Positions 13,386-21,652 of a stretch of 33,120 bases of DNA are shown piece by piece. Every line of letters begins with the position of its first letter. The stretch's first letter is position 1. Under the pieces are notes generated by a model that searched no databases, was not told where the DNA came from, and saw only the letters and a list, made by a program, of their open reading frames with translations. The stretch comes from Gammaproteobacteria bacterium (GTDB taxonomy: Bacteria > Pseudomonadota > Gammaproteobacteria > Pseudomonadales > Azotimanducaceae): NCBI GenBank assembly GCA_009919975.1, contig RGAU01000003.1, positions 1 to 33,120 of the forward strand, read 5' to 3'. Made by a program: the position numbers and the translations under genes.

Positions 13386-13478
13386 CGCGGGGAACCGCTT
13401 AAGGTACACTGAGGCCCCCCGCCCGCGCCCCGCGCCGGGGCGGGCCAGTTTTTCATTCCACAGGGAGAGATGGGCCTT

Positions 13479-14249
13479 ATGAAGCTTGAGAACAAAGTTG
13501 CCGTCATTACCGGGGGGGCCTCGGGCCTGGGTCGCGCCACCGCCGAGAAAGTCATCGCCGCGGGCGGCAAGGTCGCCATTTTTGACCTCAATGAGCAGCT
13601 TGCCAATGCCACGGCCGAAGCCCTGGGCCCGTCCGCAAAGGCCTTCGCTGTGAACGTTTCCGATGAAGAGTCGGTAAAGGCTGCCATCGCCGGCACCCTC
13701 GAGGCCTTTGGGGCCATCCACATCAATGTGAACTGCGCTGGCGTGGGCGCCGCCGCTCGGACCCTGGGCCGGGATGGTGCTATGCCCCTCGCGACCTTCA
13801 ACTTCGTGCTTGGCGTGAACCTCATCGGCACCTTCAATGTCCTTCGCTTATGCGCAGAAGCCATGGCGAAGAATACCCCGGACGACGAAGACGGCGAGCG
13901 CGGCGTGATCATCAACACCGCATCGGTCGCGGCCTTCGACGGGCAAATCGGCCAGGCGGCCTATAGCGCCTCCAAGGCTGGGGTGGCAGGCATGACCCTG
14001 CCCATCGCACGGGACCTTTCCCGCACCGGGATTCGCGTGAACACCATCGCCCCGGGGATCTTTGAAACCCCCATGATGATGGGCGCGCCCGATCAGGTCC
14101 GCCTGCCCCTCATCGACATGGTGCAGTTTCCCAAGCGCCTGGGGGACGCTCCGGAGTTCGCGGCCCTTGCTGTGCACATGATGGAAAACACCTATCTCAA
14201 TGGCGAAACCGTTCGCCTCGACGGCGGCATCCGGATGCAGCCGAAGTAA
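13479..14249 (+). CDS. HSD10-like 3-hydroxyacyl-CoA dehydrogenase (SDR family)
   Basis: A short-chain dehydrogenase resembling human HSD17B10 and bacterial 3-hydroxy-2-methylbutyryl-CoA dehydrogenases, which oxidise 3-hydroxyacyl-CoA with NAD+ in isoleucine or fatty acid breakdown. Using ATG 13479 (MKLENKVAVITGG) gives 256 residues. Motifs are TGGASGLG (11-18), NCAG (85-88), and catalytic Ser149, Tyr162, Lys166 (AYSASKAG). HSD10-type segments include GVIINTASVAAFDGQIGQ and a C-terminus LNGETVRLDGGIRMQPK. Its Shine-Dalgarno AGGGAG suits 13479 better than the track start at 13470. It stands alone, divergent from murB, and is not part of the usual neighbourhood. The exact substrate is inferred. 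Confidence 0.85.
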   Translation: MKLENKVAVITGGASGLGRATAEKVIAAGGKVAIFDLNEQLANATAEALGPSAKAFAVNVSDEESVKAAIAGTLEAFGAIHINVNCAGVGAAARTLGRDGAMPLATFNFVLGVNLIGTFNVLRLCAEAMAKNTPDDEDGERGVIINTASVAAFDGQIGQAAYSASKAGVAGMTLPIARDLSRTGIRVNTIAPGIFETPMMMGAPDQVRLPLIDMVQFPKRLGDAPEFAALAVHMMENTYLNGETVRLDGGIRMQPK

Positions 14250-14260
14250 GGTGCGCATGC

Positions 14261-14288
14261 GCAGGCACCGGATTACTCCGGTGCCTGC
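14261..14288. terminator. Perfect 12-bp hairpin between convergent genes
   Basis: GCAGGCACCGGA and TCCGGTGCCTGC pair perfectly around a four-base loop. It lies 11 bases after the HSD10-like gene and contains the TAA stop codon of the selenoprotein gene on the other strand. No T-run follows on either strand. Termination for both genes is the likely role. Confidence 0.65.
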
Positions 14289-14800
14289 AAATTCCTCAGA
14301 ATTTCCTCCCAGGCAGCTTCCGCCAAGCCCACCATCTCCGCATCGGTCCGGTCCTGAATGGGATGGGGTACGAAGCAGCGCCGCGCTGGGAACGCCAGCG
14401 CCTCCGCCTGCACCTCCGCAGCCTCCACAAAGGCCGTAGAAGCCAGGAAGGCTCCGGGTACGCCACGCTGATCAAGATCTCGCAGGTCATGCAGACTGCA
14501 CGACGTACAAGAGCCTCAGTCAGCCAGCGCTTCCAGAACGAGGTCGCATTCCTCGGCAATCTGCTGGCGCAGCGCCGTAGGCGCAGGGCGGGTAAAAGTG
14601 GGCTTGCTGTAGCGCCGCACCTCAGCCCCGGCAGCCTTGAGCTTGCCTTCTACGTGATCGAGGAAAACATCGCCGCGAGGTTTAGAAATATCCAAAAGCC
14701 CCACCACCTTCCCCGCCACGGAAGCGGGAAGGGGCAGCGGCGTTCGGGCCGCCGGGGCGCTTTCCCCCGTCGGGTCCATCACCACCAAGCCAGTGCTCAT
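14273..14800 (-). CDS. UGSC-family selenoprotein (in-frame TGA read as selenocysteine)
   Basis: The track stops this ORF at 94 residues at a TGA (14518-14516). Reading on in the same frame gives U-GSCTSCSLHD and 80 further residues to TAA at 14275-14273, in all 175 residues with Sec95. Both halves match one family: before the TGA, KVVGLLDISKPRGDVFLDHV and KPTFTRPAP; after it, FVEAAEVQAEALAFP and CFVPHPI. The Sec-Gly-Ser-Cys motif is the signature of the UGSC family, in which Cys replaces Sec in some members. Cys98 and Cys101 follow. A fdhF-like hairpin starts 12 bases after the TGA. A strong AGGAG precedes the ATG, and the gene is 27 bases behind a thioredoxin-fold gene. The biochemical role is unknown; a redox function is inferred. 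No selA, selB, selC or selD is in the window. Confidence 0.9.
14486..14504 (-). promoter_or_regulatory. Putative bacterial SECIS hairpin
   Basis: On the mRNA strand GTCGTGCA and TGCATGAC pair (one G-U) around the loop GTC. The stem begins 12 bases and the loop 20 bases after the TGA. E. coli fdhF has UGCA-GGUC-UGCA at about the same distance. Size, position and the upper stem therefore fit recognition by SelB. The loop has one G where fdhF has GG. Confidence 0.75.
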
Positions 14801-14827
14801 GGCTGTGCTCCTTCTAAAGGCCTTTGT

Positions 14828-16237
14828 TTAAAGGCGAATCTCATGGGTTACGGGGCTGCTGCCGATGGTGCCGCTGGCCCCCCACCCTCCTATCACTGCG
14901 GAAAACATGCCGGCCTCACCCCCCGCGCGCACGAGGCGCAGGCCGCCCTCCCGGAATTTCTCGAAGCTGCGCTCCGCCAGGGCCGGTGGGAGGCCTTCCT
15001 CCATCCCGCCAGCGCCGCGAACAAGCTCCTGCCCAGGGCGCGTTAAATAGTCGCGGAGCGTTTTAATCACGGCCTCCTTACTCCACCCGGCGTCATGGAA
15101 GACCCGGGCGTGCTCCGGGGACACGACAAGGAACGCGTCCGCCGCCTGCACCATCTTGGGATGGGAGACCACCTTCAGAGCCTCGGCAAAGGAGCGGCAC
15201 AGGGGCTCAGGGGTACGGGCCTTTTGATCGACGATGCCCTGCACCCCATCGGCGGCGAAGAGGGTCACGCTGTTGGCGTTCCGAGCAAGGCCAGCGTCCT
15301 CATTGAGATTGGACCACTTGGGGTCCCCGTCCTCTGCAAAGCAGAAGGTGTACTTACCGGGGTTCCCCAGGGTGGCCCGGTCCACCCCCTGGGGTCGACC
15401 GCCACCAACGTTACGAATCACGAGCTGGAGCGCACGGCCAATCGTGGCATTCGCCCGGTTCCCCTGCCCCAGCGCATTGCCCTGACTATTCATGCCAATG
15501 GCCTTAGCGAGGGGACCACACACCACCACCATGGGACCGGAAAAATAGGTGGTGGCCAGAAGGCCGTGCATGCAAAAGGGCGGCAAAAGAGCCGCTTCCA
15601 CGGCGGCAAGCACCACGGGCAGGTACTCGGGCTTACAGCCCGCCAGCACGGCGTTGATAGCCACCTTCTCCACGGTGACGGGTACCAAGTTCGGAGGCAC
15701 ATCCCCCAGCACTTCCGCTGGATCCCGGGAGGTGCCCTCCAGCATGCGAGCGACCCGCTCTGGAGTGGGCGGCACCACGGGCAGGCCGTCGCTCCAGCCC
15801 CGATCAAAGAGCGCCTCCTGAATATCCTCCTCCTGCCCGAGGGTCACGCGCCGCGCGGCAAGGCGCTCCGCGCGCAGCCGCTCGCTGTGCGGCGGCGTGA
15901 CGGACAGGGAGGCGCAGCCCGGGCGCAGGGCCGGAAGCTCTGCCCCGAGGGTCGGGTCCTCGAGAATGCTTTGCCACGCCGCGCGTTCCCAACCTTCGCA
16001 GCGCGCGACTTCCTCTTGCCCGGAGAAAGCGATGAGGGCCGGCACAATTTCGACGCCGAGATCGAAGGAGGCCTTCAGCGTCACATCGTGCTGAACGCCA
16101 GGCACGGCGGGAAAGGCAGGATCATCCTGAGTCCAAAGCGCAACGGTTTCCCGCGGAGCCAGGGCCTCGAGCACCGGCGCGATGAGCTGGCAGGTGGGGC
16201 AATCGGCTTTCACGACCACAACATAGCGTTGACTCAT
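14828..16237 (-). CDS. Thioredoxin-fold protein with conserved C-terminal domain, partner of the UGSC selenoprotein
   Basis: The 469-residue protein starts at ATG 16237, which overlaps the kdsB stop codon (ATGA); the track start 26 codons upstream has no support. Residues 1 to about 90 look like a thioredoxin fold with the redox pair Cys13-Pro-Thr-Cys16 (KADCPTCQLI) and a cis-Pro region EIVPALIAF. From about 150 onward there is a long domain I cannot name, with DRGWSDGLPVVPPTPERV, an AGMN-like stretch AIGMNSQGNALGQGNRANAT, and a C-terminal glycine-rich end. From memory, proteins with this C-terminal domain lie beside UGSC genes in other genomes; that needs checking. The pairing suggests that the CPTC domain reduces, or is reduced by, the Sec centre. 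That is inference. Confidence 0.75.
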   Translation of the reverse strand: MSQRYVVVVKADCPTCQLIAPVLEALAPRETVALWTQDDPAFPAVPGVQHDVTLKASFDLGVEIVPALIAFSGQEEVARCEGWERAAWQSILEDPTLGAELPALRPGCASLSVTPPHSERLRAERLAARRVTLGQEEDIQEALFDRGWSDGLPVVPPTPERVARMLEGTSRDPAEVLGDVPPNLVPVTVEKVAINAVLAGCKPEYLPVVLAAVEAALLPPFCMHGLLATTYFSGPMVVVCGPLAKAIGMNSQGNALGQGNRANATIGRALQLVIRNVGGGRPQGVDRATLGNPGKYTFCFAEDGDPKWSNLNEDAGLARNANSVTLFAADGVQGIVDQKARTPEPLCRSFAEALKVVSHPKMVQAADAFLVVSPEHARVFHDAGWSKEAVIKTLRDYLTRPGQELVRGAGGMEEGLPPALAERSFEKFREGGLRLVRAGGEAGMFSAVIGGWGASGTIGSSPVTHEIRL

Positions 16238-17010
16238 CCGTTCTCCCCCACCCAGCTTTCCTGTAAGCGGGCCAAATCCTCGGGCGTATCCACCCCCCCG
16301 GGCACGGCCTCGCACGCCTCCGCCACGTGAATCCGTTCACCATAGGCAAGGACCCGAAGCTGCTCAAGGGCCTCGAGGCGCTCGAGCGTCGCCGGCGCCC
16401 AGGCCACAAAGCGGCGCAGCAGGCCGACCCGATAGGCGTAGAGCCCCAGGTGGCGCCAGCACGGAGCGGGTAGCGCCCTTTCGCCTTCAACCGCAGTGAG
16501 ATCCCGGGGCCAGGGAATGGGCGCCCGGGAGAAATAGAGGGCCGCGCCCGCCTCATCCATAACCACCTTGACGATATTGGGGTCGCGAAAGGCCTCGGGG
16601 CGAGTGATGGCCTCGCAGAGCGTAGCCATGGCCGCGCCGGAGCGCTCAAGGTTTGCAGCCACCTGACGCAGCACTGCTGCGGGTACGCAGGGCTCATCTC
16701 CCTGCAAGTTCACGACGATGGCGTCATCCTCCCAGCCCCGCACCCGGGAAACCTCTTCGATACGATCTGTGCCCGACGGATGGTTTGGGTCCGTGAGTAC
16801 CACCTCGGCGCCGAAGTCCCGGGCCACGCCCTCAATGCGCGCATCATCGGTGGCAATGACCACGCTTTCCGCCCCCGCGGCGCAGCCCCGGCGCCAAGCC
16901 TGGATCACCATGGGCGCATCCCCGAGGGGCGCTAGGGGCTTTCCCGGCAGGCGGCTCGAGCCATAGCGCGCCGGAATCACGATATGAAAGGGACCGCTAG
17001 GGTTGGGCAC
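16234..17010 (-). CDS. kdsB: 3-deoxy-manno-octulosonate cytidylyltransferase (KdsB)
   Basis: KdsB makes CMP-Kdo from CTP and Kdo for the inner core of lipopolysaccharide. The 258-residue protein has IPARYGSSRLPGKPL (13-27), VNLQGDEPCVP and the HLGLYAYR segment that are typical of KdsB. The GTG start overlaps the exbD end by 14 bases. In Pseudomonas lpxK and a small Trm112-like gene lie between exbD and kdsB, and neither is here. Its presence shows that the organism makes Kdo-containing lipopolysaccharide. Confidence 0.96.
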   Translation of the reverse strand: MPNPSGPFHIVIPARYGSSRLPGKPLAPLGDAPMVIQAWRRGCAAGAESVVIATDDARIEGVARDFGAEVVLTDPNHPSGTDRIEEVSRVRGWEDDAIVVNLQGDEPCVPAAVLRQVAANLERSGAAMATLCEAITRPEAFRDPNIVKVVMDEAGAALYFSRAPIPWPRDLTAVEGERALPAPCWRHLGLYAYRVGLLRRFVAWAPATLERLEALEQLRVLAYGERIHVAEACEAVPGGVDTPEDLARLQESWVGENG

Positions 17011-17425
17011 GCTTGCCCTCCTCTGTGTGCTGGGTTTCTAGCTTAAGGGATGAAAAGCCGGCCTGCTCCGCCAATGCTAAAAGCGCCAGGACCTCGCCAT
17101 GGGGGGCCCCCTGATCTGCCGCCAAGCTCAGCTCCCCGCGGCCCGCCGCGGCGGCCCGGCGGAGGGCCTCCAAGCGCGCGGGCGCAGCTTCGGGCAGGAG
17201 CGCGCCCTCCAGGGCCACTGCCCCCTCCGCGGAGAGGCTTAAGCGCACGGCGCGCTCGGGCACGGCGCCCTGGGCGCTCACCGCGGGGCGCTCGATGGTG
17301 AGGGCCCCGGGAGGATCGGGGAAGCGCGTCGCCACCATAAAAAAAACAAGAAGCAGGAAGAGCACGTCTACGAGGGGCGCGAGTTCCAGGGCGGGGGCCT
17401 CGAGGCGCCGGCGGGGAAAGCTCAA
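16997..17425 (-). CDS. exbD: Biopolymer transport protein ExbD/TolR family
   Basis: This is part of an inner-membrane proton-driven complex with ExbB that energises TonB- or Tol-type transport. The 142-residue protein has a short cytoplasmic start, one membrane helix with the conserved aspartate in LAPLVDVLFLLLVFFMV, and a periplasmic domain. It uses a TTG start overlapping the exbB stop codon (TTGA). The position before kdsB matches exbD of Pseudomonas. No tonB is in the window. Confidence 0.93.
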   Translation of the reverse strand: MSFPRRRLEAPALELAPLVDVLFLLLVFFMVATRFPDPPGALTIERPAVSAQGAVPERAVRLSLSAEGAVALEGALLPEAAPARLEALRRAAAAGRGELSLAADQGAPHGEVLALLALAEQAGFSSLKLETQHTEEGKRAQP

Positions 17426-18000
17426 GGCCTCGGCTCCGGTTGCAGCCAGGGCCCAAGGCAGTGCTCCAGGGCGTTCATCAGCTCATCCACCCGCCGGGAC
17501 AGTAGACGATGGGCCATGAGCGCCGGGATCGCGATGGTAAGCCCCGTGGCGGTGCTGATGAGGGCGGCGCCGATACCGCCGGCGAGGAGCGCTCCGGCTC
17601 CGCCCTCGAGCGCATCGAGGCTGGAGAACACATCGATCATCCCCAGGACCGTGCCCAGCATGCCGAGCAGGGGCGTGATCATGGCCAAAATCCCCAGCAG
17701 GGTGAGATAGCGCTCGAGGCCCTGAAGCTCCTGCGCCGCCTGTTGCTCCAGGGCCCCCTTGAGGCCCTCCCCCGGCCCCCGCGCCTGGGCCACGGCGAGC
17801 AAGCGCCCTAAGGGACTTGTACCCAGGGCCTCCGGGGCCACCCGGGCCAGGGTTTCCGCGGTCAGGCCCCGCAGCGCGGCGGGCAACACCCGCTCGGCTC
17901 GGAGGGCCAGAAGGCGCTCAAAAATCAAAGTGAGGGCCAGCACGGAGGCCAGCGCAAGGGGCACCATGGTGGGGCCACCGGCAAGGAACCATTCAAACAT
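17422..18000 (-). CDS. exbB: MotA/TolQ/ExbB proton channel protein
   Basis: The partner of ExbD in the proton-driven inner-membrane motor. Using ATG 18000 (MFEWFLAGGPTM) gives 192 residues. The track's longer start runs back into the flavoprotein gene and has no family support. An N-terminal membrane helix (about 10-30) and two more around 100-160 are visible, with the TolQ/ExbB motif ITPLLGMLGTVLGMID and the later IGAALISTATGLTIAIPAL. Its start overlaps the preceding gene by 8 bases. Confidence 0.93.
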   Translation of the reverse strand: MFEWFLAGGPTMVPLALASVLALTLIFERLLALRAERVLPAALRGLTAETLARVAPEALGTSPLGRLLAVAQARGPGEGLKGALEQQAAQELQGLERYLTLLGILAMITPLLGMLGTVLGMIDVFSSLDALEGGAGALLAGGIGAALISTATGLTIAIPALMAHRLLSRRVDELMNALEHCLGPWLQPEPRP

Positions 18001-19174
18001 CGGCAGTGTCTCCAAAGATGGGGGCAAGGCCGGCGGTGAGGAAGCGGCCCTCCGGATCCCAGTGCCCGCGCAGGGCCCGGAAGCGCTCAAGGTTTTTCCC
18101 ATAGCAATGTTCGAAGGCCGCCCGATCGAGGGAGAAGCGCTTGCCCCAGTGGGGCCGGCCACCGAAGGCTCGAAAGATCGGCTCAACGCAGTCGAAGAGC
18201 GGCCCATAGGGACGGCGTGCATCCTGGTGCACGGAGATCGCCGCCACCCGCTGCCCCTGCGTTGGGGACAGCCAGCCCCGATCCCCGGCAACGATGCGGT
18301 ACTCCACGGGCCAGGGTAGCTTTGGGAAATCCTTCAAAAGCGCTTGCCGGAGCTCACGGAAGCAGGCTGGCCCGGCCTCGAGGGGCACGGAGTATTCCAT
18401 CTCGTTAAAGCGTGCGTCCCGATCGCTTGGGAAGATCTGCCAAGCCGGCCCCCAACGCTCCCCCTCGCCCCCGAAGGGCAAGGGGTCGAGCTTTATGGAC
18501 CGACCAAGGGGAATCTCCCGGAGCTGCTTGAAGAGCGTTTCATCGCTCGCGGGAATCCACCAAAACTCCCCGTGGCGTTGGCTACGGAAGCGTGCGTGAT
18601 TCCCTTCAAAAAGGGTCTCGAAGGGGATCTTGGCATTGCGCTCGGCCAGCCCGTAGGCCGGGCGCAGGCGAAGGGCAAGGGCCGTCACGACCCCCAAAAG
18701 GCCTAAGTGAATACGGGTGCCATCTAACGTCTCAGGGCCCGTGAGCACGTGGATCCGCCCGTCCCCATCCACCAGGCGCATACCCGTGACCATGGCCGCT
18801 AGGGACGGCAGGGCCCAACCCGTGCCATGGGTGCCGGTAGCCAGGGCGCCAGCGAGGCTTTGGCGATCGATATCCCCCTGATTCGCCAGCGCGAGGCCGT
18901 GGGCCGCCAGCTTCGGTCCCAGGTCTGCCAAGCGTTGCCCGGCGCCCAGCCAAAGCTGGCCGTCCTCAAGGACCACACCATCAAGGCCCTCCAGGGAGCC
19001 TAGGGCATCGTCGGCACCCCAGAGGGGGGAAAAGCTATGGCCGGCGCCCACCACCCGGCGCACGCCCGAGCCCTGGGGCGCCGCAAGCCAGCGCTGCACC
19101 GCCGCTTCCGAGGGCAAGGGGATTAGCTCGGCTTCGGGAAAGTGCTGGGCCCCGGACCAGTTCTCCCAAGCCAT
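17993..19174 (-). CDS. FAD-linked sugar-lactone oxidase family protein
   Basis: The 393-residue protein belongs to the family of L-gulono- and D-arabinono-1,4-lactone oxidases. The N-terminal FAD-binding part has the GAGHSFSPLW motif (about residue 43) and GALATGTHGTG. The C-terminal ALO domain ends with the characteristic RPHWGKRFSL and a DPEGRFLTAGL motif. The ATG at 19174 overlaps the preceding stop codon by one base (TAATG), so the track start at 19243 is rejected. The histidine in GHS is the usual covalent FAD site in this family. The substrate is not certain. Co-transcription with a PLP enzyme and exbBD is unusual. Confidence 0.87.
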   Translation of the reverse strand: MAWENWSGAQHFPEAELIPLPSEAAVQRWLAAPQGSGVRRVVGAGHSFSPLWGADDALGSLEGLDGVVLEDGQLWLGAGQRLADLGPKLAAHGLALANQGDIDRQSLAGALATGTHGTGWALPSLAAMVTGMRLVDGDGRIHVLTGPETLDGTRIHLGLLGVVTALALRLRPAYGLAERNAKIPFETLFEGNHARFRSQRHGEFWWIPASDETLFKQLREIPLGRSIKLDPLPFGGEGERWGPAWQIFPSDRDARFNEMEYSVPLEAGPACFRELRQALLKDFPKLPWPVEYRIVAGDRGWLSPTQGQRVAAISVHQDARRPYGPLFDCVEPIFRAFGGRPHWGKRFSLDRAAFEHCYGKNLERFRALRGHWDPEGRFLTAGLAPIFGDTADV

Positions 19175-20337
19175 TACCAGGCGCCTCCCCGAGCGGCGAT
19201 GGGCCAGGCTTCGACGATCTCCTCGGCGTCGTTTTCGACCCAAAGCCAGTCGTAGAGATTCACCGTGGGATCGCAGTGGGACACGCGCAGGCGGAGCCGC
19301 TCCCCGAGGGCCAGGGCACCGCCATCGCCAAAGCGCACCACCCCGTGCTCATCACCGGCAAAGAAATAGCGCGCCCCCGGAAGATCCAGCACCGCGGGCA
19401 GGGGGGATGGCCAGAGGCTCTTAAGCCCCGCGTCCACCGTAATGGCCCCTTCCCGAGGCTGGCTGATCGCCGTGCTGTGGACCGTGAGCGCCGTTGCAAA
19501 GCTGTCCAAGAGGGTCCCCTCGGGGCCCTCAAGTACCCCATATTCCTGATCCATGAAGGCGTAGGAACCGCACTGAAGGTCGGTGTAGAGCCCCGCCGGG
19601 CCATCGTAGAAAACGCTGCCCGTGCCACCGCCGGTGAAGACGGCAACGGGAACGCCCTTCGCCTCCGTAGCCGCCACCAAGCCTCGCGCCGCCTCGTGAT
19701 GGGCCTCACAAGCCGCCTGCCGCTCCCCAGCCTCCGCAATGTGCTGCACTTGGCCGGCGTAATGCTGAAAGCCATGGAAAGCGAGGCCCTTCGCCTTGAC
19801 CACGGCCTCTACCCGAGCCAGGGCCTCGGGTCCGGGGGCGACGCCGGTGCGCCCCATGGCCGGATCGAGATCCACCAATACGGGCATGACCACCCCGGCC
19901 TGAGCGGCACGCTGAGCCAGGGCCTCGATGCCTGTAAAGCTGTCCACCACAAGCGTAAGATCGGCGCCGCTTACCCGAAGTGCGATCATGCGATCGAGGG
20001 CTTGGGGGGCCAGCACCGGAGAAGTCACGAGCAGGGGCCCTACCCCGGCTCGGGCCATTACCTCCGCTTCCCGCGGTTTTGCTACGCAAAGCCCGAGGGC
20101 GCCGGCAGCCAGCTGGCGCCGCGCCACCTCAGGGCACTTGTGCATTTTTCCGTGAGGTCGAAGGCCCAAGCCGTAGCCAGACACTAGAGATTGCATGGCG
20201 GTCAGATTGCGCTCGAAGGCGCTGCGCTGAAGCACGAGCGCCGGCGTGGGAAGGGCTTCCCGGGGCAGAGGCTGCTCAAGCACCACGGGGGCATCGGGCC
20301 CGTAGTGCCCCAGGGGCGTAGGAACGCCGTTGGCCAT
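19174..20337 (-). CDS. D-threonine aldolase-like, fold-type III PLP enzyme
   Basis: Members of this alanine-racemase-fold family cleave or dehydrate D-hydroxy amino acids such as D-threonine, D-serine or D-3-hydroxyaspartate, using PLP and a divalent metal. The ATG at 20337 with AGGGAGG gives 387 residues. The PLP lysine lies in LRPHGKMHKCP (about Lys64). FTGGGTGS binds phosphate, and the C-terminal metal site has His and Cys in SHCDPTVNLYDW. It is the first gene of a seven-gene overlapping operon that ends with the selenoprotein. Which D-amino acid it uses cannot be read. Confidence 0.87.
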   Translation of the reverse strand: MANGVPTPLGHYGPDAPVVLEQPLPREALPTPALVLQRSAFERNLTAMQSLVSGYGLGLRPHGKMHKCPEVARRQLAAGALGLCVAKPREAEVMARAGVGPLLVTSPVLAPQALDRMIALRVSGADLTLVVDSFTGIEALAQRAAQAGVVMPVLVDLDPAMGRTGVAPGPEALARVEAVVKAKGLAFHGFQHYAGQVQHIAEAGERQAACEAHHEAARGLVAATEAKGVPVAVFTGGGTGSVFYDGPAGLYTDLQCGSYAFMDQEYGVLEGPEGTLLDSFATALTVHSTAISQPREGAITVDAGLKSLWPSPLPAVLDLPGARYFFAGDEHGVVRFGDGGALALGERLRLRVSHCDPTVNLYDWLWVENDAEEIVEAWPIAARGGAW

Positions 20338-20389
20338 ACTGTCCTCCCTGTCGCCCACCGAGGCAGGACCACCTTGGCGCGGCAATTGC

Positions 20390-20403
20390 TAACACGAGTG
20401 TTA
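20390..20403. promoter_or_regulatory. Candidate palindromic operator
   Basis: TAACAC-GA-GTGTTA is a perfect 14-base palindrome in the divergent spacer between the D-threonine aldolase-like gene and the EAL-type gene. Size and spacing resemble TetR-type operators. No regulator gene is nearby, and the binding protein is unknown. Confidence 0.45.
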
Positions 20404-20458
20404 TTGATCCTTATCGCGGGTCCGGATCACCATCCCTCCACGGAGAGAGTGCCAAGAC

Positions 20459-21652
20459 ATGGAAAGGGACGCCACCAAAAGCCTGTTCCAGAACCCCCTG
20501 GGCCAGAGCCTTCAGCCGACGCTTCGGGACGATGGCGCGGGGCTTAGCCTCCTCCACCGGGGGCAGCGCCTTCGCAGCCGCTTTGCGCCGCTTATCTCCC
20601 GGGCCCACGGGCGCCCTGTGGCCTACCGGGCCACGGTGCAGAGCGATGCTGAGACCGTCGCCTTCCTGGAGGGCGAGGCCGATCTCGAGCTGACTGCTGC
20701 CGTGACGACCCTTCACATGCAGCAGTTTCAGGCGACCCACAAGGGCGCCGGCGCCTGGCTGGTGTTGCCCGTGCCCGGCCCGGCGCTCCAGGACGCGACG
20801 CTTTGGCCGCCCGTGCCCCAGGATCTCTTCGCCAGCGATGGCTTCACGCCTTCGGAAGTCATGCTCAGCGTGTCCGTCGATAGCGCCCAGGCAGCGGTGC
20901 TCGCCGACTTCGCCCAATATCATCGAGCCCTTGGCTTTACCGTGGAAGTTCGAGGGCTTTCCCCCCACCGTGGGGATCTTGCGCTGCTCTGGGCGGGGTC
21001 GCCGGAGCTCGTGACCCTCGACGCCGCCTTCCTCCCCACGGCCGAGGGCTCGCCCCGAAAACTGGGACAGCTTCGGGCACTGATCACGCTTTTGCACGAA
21101 AGTGGTGCGATGGTGGGGCTAGAAGGTCTCACCCAGCCGGAGGCGCTCCGCTGGGCGTTGGATACCCCTGTGGACCTTGTGAGCGGCCCCGCCGTGTGGC
21201 CCTGGGCATCCCCCGCGCCTACGACCGGGGGAAGCCCTCTTGCCGGACCGGCCGCCCTCCCCGCCTTCGAGAAGGCGCTCGCCGCCCTGCGCACGGGAGA
21301 CGCGCTGGAGACGGCCTGCGCCACCCTGCTATACGAAGCCGGGGTGCTGCGTTGCTACGTATTGAATGACCAGGGGGAGCAGCTGGTGGAAAACCTCTCT
21401 CCGGCGGGGACGCGCAGCGATTCGCGCTATTGGCCCCTGGCCCAGGCCGAGGGAGCGAGCTGGGCCCACCGCCCTTACTTCCGCCAGGCCCTCGCCCATC
21501 CCGGCGCTCTACTGGTGAGCGACCCCTACTTCTCCTTACCCGATGGCGGCCCCTGCCAGACCCTATCGGCAAGCTTTCTGTGCGACGGCCAGCGCCAGGT
21601 GCTGTGCTGTGATCTGGAGCTGCCCCGGCCGCCGAGCGTGCTTCGTCCCTAG
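20459..21652 (+). CDS. Degenerate EAL-domain protein with C-terminal Cache-like sensor
   Basis: The 397-residue protein looks like an EAL (cyclic-di-GMP phosphodiesterase fold) domain followed by a small ligand-sensing domain. Residues 35-270 follow the EAL pattern (PLISRAHGRPVAYRATV, then ELVTLDAAFL, then VGLEGLTQPEALRWA), but the EAL glutamate and the DDFG motif are missing and only the glutamate of EGVE remains. It is therefore probably not a phosphodiesterase, though it could still bind ligand. Residues about 300-390 (WAHRPYFRQAL, VSDPYFSL) look like a Cache/PDC sensor, without membrane helices. Similar two-domain proteins are known in gammaproteobacteria. It is transcribed alone, divergent from the PLP-enzyme operon. 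Confidence 0.75.
   Translation: MERDATKSLFQNPLGQSLQPTLRDDGAGLSLLHRGQRLRSRFAPLISRAHGRPVAYRATVQSDAETVAFLEGEADLELTAAVTTLHMQQFQATHKGAGAWLVLPVPGPALQDATLWPPVPQDLFASDGFTPSEVMLSVSVDSAQAAVLADFAQYHRALGFTVEVRGLSPHRGDLALLWAGSPELVTLDAAFLPTAEGSPRKLGQLRALITLLHESGAMVGLEGLTQPEALRWALDTPVDLVSGPAVWPWASPAPTTGGSPLAGPAALPAFEKALAALRTGDALETACATLLYEAGVLRCYVLNDQGEQLVENLSPAGTRSDSRYWPLAQAEGASWAHRPYFRQALAHPGALLVSDPYFSLPDGGPCQTLSASFLCDGQRQVLCCDLELPRPPSVLRP

Follow-up and report, generated by a model that had tools for sequence, protein, structure and literature searches.

UGSC is among the commonest selenoprotein families of aquatic metagenomes (PMC2398784) and is still functionally uncharacterised (PMC13188914). The 2008 selenoproteome study of the Global Ocean Sampling (GOS) data also recorded its fusion to a domain termed Unknown_1 (PMC2398784). 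The gene under study here, at 14273–14800 on the minus strand of a 33,120-nucleotide stretch of an Azotimanducaceae genome (contig RGAU01000003.1, the whole stretch being referred to below as the window), is a member of this family (PF24696/NF041046) and has its selenocysteine (Sec) in the UGSC motif. UGSC is a known family, and the locus differs from the family as published in what accompanies the selenoprotein: a regular partner gene, here at 14828–16237 on the same strand, a thioredoxin domain fused to that partner and, in other genomes, a trxB/trxA neighbourhood, all of which are apparently undescribed in the literature. Further systems for comparison are the thioredoxins (PF00085), the Sec subunits PrdB and GrdB (PF07355) of D-proline and glycine reductase, and the exbB-exbD-(msbA-lpxK)-kdsB gene order of Gammaproteobacteria. 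A preliminary description of the window had drawn attention to a selenoprotein joined to an envelope-biogenesis operon; it is the pairing of UGSC with its partner, rather than the envelope operon, that forms the main finding.

At least 569 relatives of the partner emerged from a scan of GTDB genomes, and all counts out of 80 given below refer to the best 80 of these, found in Pseudomonadota, Actinomycetota, Acidobacteriota, Chloroflexota, Myxococcota, Gemmatimonadota and Thermodesulfobacteriota. Gene-order comparison, by which the preliminary description had proposed to judge whether the two genes belong together, finds them paired elsewhere: a UGSC gene adjoins the partner in 79 of the 80, downstream on the same strand in 76 and divergently in three, and no UGSC gene was found for the remaining relative, the contig of which ends soon after the partner. 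Many relatives have a 4-nucleotide overlap at the partner/UGSC junction, and in some genomes UGSC and the partner core are naturally fused into a single protein. All three UGSC genes of the window genome adjoin a partner gene, two in the order partner-UGSC and one in the order UGSC-partner with overlapping frames, and in a sample of 399 genomes of the phylum the six that hold one family are the same six that hold the other. Pairwise distances of UGSC and partner proteins correlate with r 0.68, a value that none of 2000 permutations reached and that shared descent alone would also produce. UGSC and its partner are a conserved, widespread bacterial module.

The UGSC gene of the window encodes 175 residues with TGA read as Sec in the motif UGSCTSC, and scores 134.7 bits against PF24696 (cut-off 25) and 143.2 bits against NF041046 (cut-off 125), both curated cut-offs being exceeded; its designation as a true UGSC selenoprotein gene is borne out. 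The in-frame Sec codon lies at 14516–14518 (minus strand), and by two counts the aligned site reads TGA in 75 or 77 of the 80 relatives. In two Geodermatophilaceae, Blastococcus (L055) and Geodermatophilus (L088), the codon is TAG, and each of the two genomes has a tRNA-Sec whose anticodon is CUA, a combination previously published for Geodermatophilaceae (PMC5330540). This codon exchange, with its matching tRNA-Sec(CUA), offers strong natural evidence for Sec at the UGSC site. At 14486–14504 (minus strand), 14 nucleotides past the TGA, lies a hairpin whose loop contains GU, the probable apical stem of a bacterial selenocysteine insertion sequence; such a hairpin folds in most loci, those with TAG included, and its stem is 94.7% paired in the alignment. 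Covariation showed no excess over shuffles, so that it is by conservation alone that the hairpin is supported. Inspection of the sequences by eye identified SelB genes close to the pair in 12 loci and SelA genes close to it in 11. Cysteine forms of UGSC, with TGC or TGT at the site, also occur (e.g., L099, L103, haloarchaeal L141, L155). The modeled UGSC protein, with a mean predicted local distance difference test (pLDDT) score of 92.8, is an α/β domain of the Rossmann or flavodoxin-like type with the Sec at a helix start, and on this model the thioredoxin-like fold assumed in 2008 was rejected. On a Paracoccus ferrooxidans plasmid (L142, 4387–4956), a TGA-bearing UGSC gene is annotated as two short hypothetical proteins; it is fused in frame to its partner or overlaps it, and selB lies 3 kb away. 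Locus L095 holds at 13–453, 8 kb from its pair, a second and divergent UGSC-like domain in which CSTC replaces UGSC.

The partner (469 residues, model mean pLDDT 92) had been described as a thioredoxin-fold protein, and this holds for its N-terminus, a genuine CxxC thioredoxin domain confined to about the first 115 of the 469 residues, whereas the rest of the protein is a large conserved domain. Residues 1–115 (15893–16237, minus strand) match thioredoxins of the PDB by profile with an E value of 0.0003, and Foldseek finds thioredoxins as well. The domain has the CxxC motif at a helix start (CPTC, encoded at 16190–16201), the cis-proline and the thioredoxin fold, and C13, T15, C16 and P66 are invariant in 76 relatives. 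These three features it shares with PF00085, from which it differs in having CPTC rather than CGPC, in the large domain fused to it and in a score below the Pfam cut-off. The core domain of some 350 residues (121–469; 14831–15877, minus strand) also occurs in proteins that lack the thioredoxin domain and in fusions with UGSC, and paralogues and distant relatives align with the core alone. Searches of Pfam and NCBIfam gave no family over cut-off for the partner and no model covering the core, for which the PDB held no clear match either; Foldseek matches of the partner to fumarase and selenophosphate synthetase were ignored at TM scores of about 0.2 or less. The core, of which natural fusions with UGSC were found here, is probably the Unknown_1 domain of the GOS study (PMC2398784). 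At G314:C1:4572250-4574632, two partner genes stand in tandem with a single UGSC gene, which has a TrxB-like gene right next to it.

Beyond the thioredoxin-fused branch, the partners are without a thioredoxin domain. Their loci include the gene orders trxB-trxA-partner-UGSC in Arthrobacter and partner-UGSC-trxB in Roseovarius, a trxB gene three genes upstream of the pair in Variovorax SRS16, and TrxB-like genes adjoining the pair in L018, L143 and G314. Of 19 unfused loci, 6 have a TrxB-like gene within 2.5 kb, versus 0 of 80 fused ones (Fisher p about 2e-5), the loci compared being not fully independent and some having short flanks. Genes found apart in some genomes but joined into one in others generally encode functional partners. 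Because separate trxB/trxA neighbors in some genomes stand against a fused thioredoxin in others, thioredoxin is likely the electron donor to UGSC. Taken with the genes themselves, their pairing, the Sec coding in relatives and the thioredoxin domain, this neighborhood suggests with fair probability that UGSC and the partner act as one enzyme or complex, a thioredoxin-fed two-component selenoenzyme for a small substrate, of which we infer complex, electron path, chemistry and substrate as follows. NADPH would reduce thioredoxin reductase (TrxB), which would reduce thioredoxin, either free or, in the branch of the window, as the fused CPTC domain; thioredoxin would in turn reduce the oxidized Sec-Cys pair (the catalytic Sec-x-x-Cys) of UGSC, and the reduced Sec would then act on a substrate that the core of the partner holds, the probable task of this core being to bind the substrate or to complete the active site. 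In the window this module stands at the end of the kdsB operon by way of a 4-nucleotide overlap and would have no pathway in common with it. From the partner, the fused electron donor, the trxB/trxA neighbors and a possible kinship with PrdB comes a definite and testable proposal for UGSC function, and the same evidence shows which proteins to combine in a UGSC assay.

Alignment by hhalign of UGSC with the D-proline reductase subunit PrdB matched the Sec columns and gave 71.7% with 34 sequences and 89.7% with 108, the best of 52 unrelated control alignments giving 17%, all of these being pairwise scores that are not database-calibrated. The profile similarity of UGSC to the Sec domain of PrdB is suggestive, and in both proteins UxxC would stand at the same place of the α/β domain. 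Glycine reductase has a thioredoxin-related electron supply. UGSC is unlike PrdB and GrdB in that hmmscan of 34 UGSC members, with E values allowed up to 1, found no match to PF07355, in that no pyruvoyl (PrdA/GrdE) subunit is matched, and in that the pair is found in aerobic lineages, often on plasmids; a kinship of the partner core to PrdA was rejected, as the partner and PrdA profiles do not align. PrdB-like proteins with CPVC replacing Sec occur in Pseudomonadota (L132, L133), and proteins of this type are annotated on plasmids as 'glycine/sarcosine/betaine reductase selenoprotein B family protein'. Neighbors of the pair in other genomes include solute-binding proteins of tripartite tricarboxylate transporter (TTT) and tripartite ATP-independent periplasmic (TRAP) systems, coenzyme A transferases, phosphoenolpyruvate-mutase-like enzymes and phosphosulfolactate synthase; no common substrate pathway stood out among the neighbors of the thioredoxin-fused branch. 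Because of the PrdB likeness and these neighbor genes, a small organic acid or amine is tentatively favored as substrate, which by analogy with D-proline and glycine reductase would be reduced or reductively cleaved. The pair may conceivably stand for a distinct class of selenoenzyme, an idea we put forward with reserve: thioredoxin-fed and two-component, distantly akin to proline and glycine reductase through its Sec subunit alone, carried on chromosomes and plasmids of bacteria, with haloarchaea having Cys forms, and placed in varied catabolic clusters, each with its own small substrate, the window belonging to a branch that has absorbed the thioredoxin.

Several observations weigh against a thioredoxin-fed selenoenzyme for a small substrate. 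The link to PrdB concerns a single subunit and depends on one profile score from a pairwise comparison, the partner being unrelated to PrdA, and the neighbors vary so widely among loci that no single substrate is indicated. Fused UGSC–partner proteins of a Vibrio europaeus plasmid (L139, 4323–6008) and a Sporomusa termitida plasmid (L140, 4320–6044) have MGTS in the UGSC position, neither Sec nor Cys. Moreover, neither selA, selB, selD nor tRNA-Sec was found in the window genome, an assembly that is 79% complete and in 390 contigs; the best hit for tRNA-Sec was a tRNA-Ser, and the best for SelD was ThiL. Were UGA not read as Sec in this genome, the Sec machinery having been lost, UGSC would be a truncated remnant, as the missing genes might indicate. 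We regard this as very unlikely, given that three separate UGSC genes with TGA each stay open in frame beyond it, that hairpins follow the TGA, that the assembly is fragmentary to the extent stated and that a kdsB-linked relative (L019) carries tRNA-Sec(UCA). Because of this last finding, an assembly gap is the simplest reading of the missing machinery.

Given the two MGTS fusions, some members of the family may have no redox function, and the scaffold could even be that of a basically non-redox enzyme of lyase, isomerase or hydrolase type, some branches of which use Sec or Cys as a nucleophile that thioredoxin merely keeps reduced. The Vibrio and Sporomusa fusions, which have neither residue and lie near aconitase X and DUF126 genes, would fit such an enzyme, yet nearly all other members keep Sec or Cys together with a second Cys, and many of these come with a trxB gene or with a fused thioredoxin, which makes this account decidedly improbable. 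Somewhat better placed, though still unlikely in our judgment, is a thioredoxin-dependent peroxide or disulfide reductase, that is, an antioxidant system with no metabolite substrate. Such a role is often assumed for UxxC selenoproteins, and here the UxxC motif, the thioredoxin supply and the varied neighbors of the thioredoxin-fused branch, which have no catabolic operon in common, are all consistent with it; on the other hand, the UGSC model is Rossmann/flavodoxin-like and thus neither a peroxiredoxin nor a thioredoxin fold, the core of some 350 residues always accompanies UGSC, and many unfused relatives have catabolic surroundings. We prefer the thioredoxin-fed two-component selenoenzyme set out above.

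As to the surroundings of the pair, open reading frames and searches of Pfam and NCBIfam bear out the run of seven consecutive minus-strand genes, joined by overlaps or a short gap, that had been reported earlier. It starts with a pyridoxal-phosphate enzyme of the D-threonine aldolase/BhcC type (19174–20337; PF01168 and PF14031, NF045642 below cut-off), followed by an FAD-linked lactone oxidase-like gene of the ALO type (17993–19177; PF04030 and PF01565), an ExbB/TolQ-like gene (17422–18000; PF01618) and an ExbD/TolR-like gene (16997–17425; PF02472), the last two passing the Pfam cut-off only, then kdsB (16234–17010; TIGR00466, 267 bits, above the equivalog cut-off), the partner and UGSC. The interval 14828–20337 first given for this run contains six of the genes, the selenoprotein gene lying just outside it. 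The kdsB/partner junction is a 4-nucleotide overlap (ATGA), and 27 nucleotides separate the partner from UGSC. Judged from the gene overlaps, the seven genes are likely cotranscribed in the window genome. No match to a sigma-70-like promoter was found in 14000–20800, a result of little weight with 0.6 matches expected by chance, and an Rfam search of the window gave no RNA family.

Coupling of the selenoprotein to genes for 3-deoxy-D-manno-octulosonate (Kdo) and proton-motor functions, one suggestion of the preliminary description, did not survive comparison of neighborhoods, by which an envelope or Kdo role of the pair was rejected. kdsB adjoins the pair in 2 of the 80 relatives, both Gammaproteobacteria (L019, L035), and tblastn across the loci of the 80 found neither exbD nor the lactone oxidase anywhere, whereas exbB and the pyridoxal-phosphate enzyme were found in L019 only, an ExbD-like frame being visible by eye in L019 despite the lack of a tblastn match. 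An envelope redox system made up of the pair and the Kdo/ExbBD genes would draw on the overlapping genes, with one transcript likely, and on kdsB lying upstream in those two relatives too. Against this, the linkage is confined to these two, and the family is also present in Actinomycetota and haloarchaea, groups in which Kdo is for the most part not made, so that we give such a system next to no credence. Because kdsB linkage occurs in so few relatives, it is probably a lineage-specific placement, and the convenient insertion that the preliminary description had itself offered as an alternative is the better reading. Most likely the pair came to lie behind kdsB either in a single lineage or on several occasions; the kdsB-linked loci formed a single clade in 11% of bootstrap trees, the tree being undecided between one and several placements. 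The window has exbB, exbD and kdsB adjacent and in the same order as in the exbB-exbD-(msbA-lpxK)-kdsB arrangement of Gammaproteobacteria, and differs from it by the lack of msbA- or lpxK-like genes between exbD and kdsB as judged by eye, whereas by the same means a long msbA-like frame is seen upstream of kdsB in L019 and an lpxK-like gene in L035. In the window, exbD abuts kdsB directly at 16997–17010. Beyond UGSC lies a convergent short-chain dehydrogenase/reductase gene (13470–14249, plus strand; PF00106), followed by a murB-like frame on the minus strand. The dehydrogenase/reductase gene is kept at the same site in L019 and L035, with 67–68% identity, and may matter to the local arrangement.

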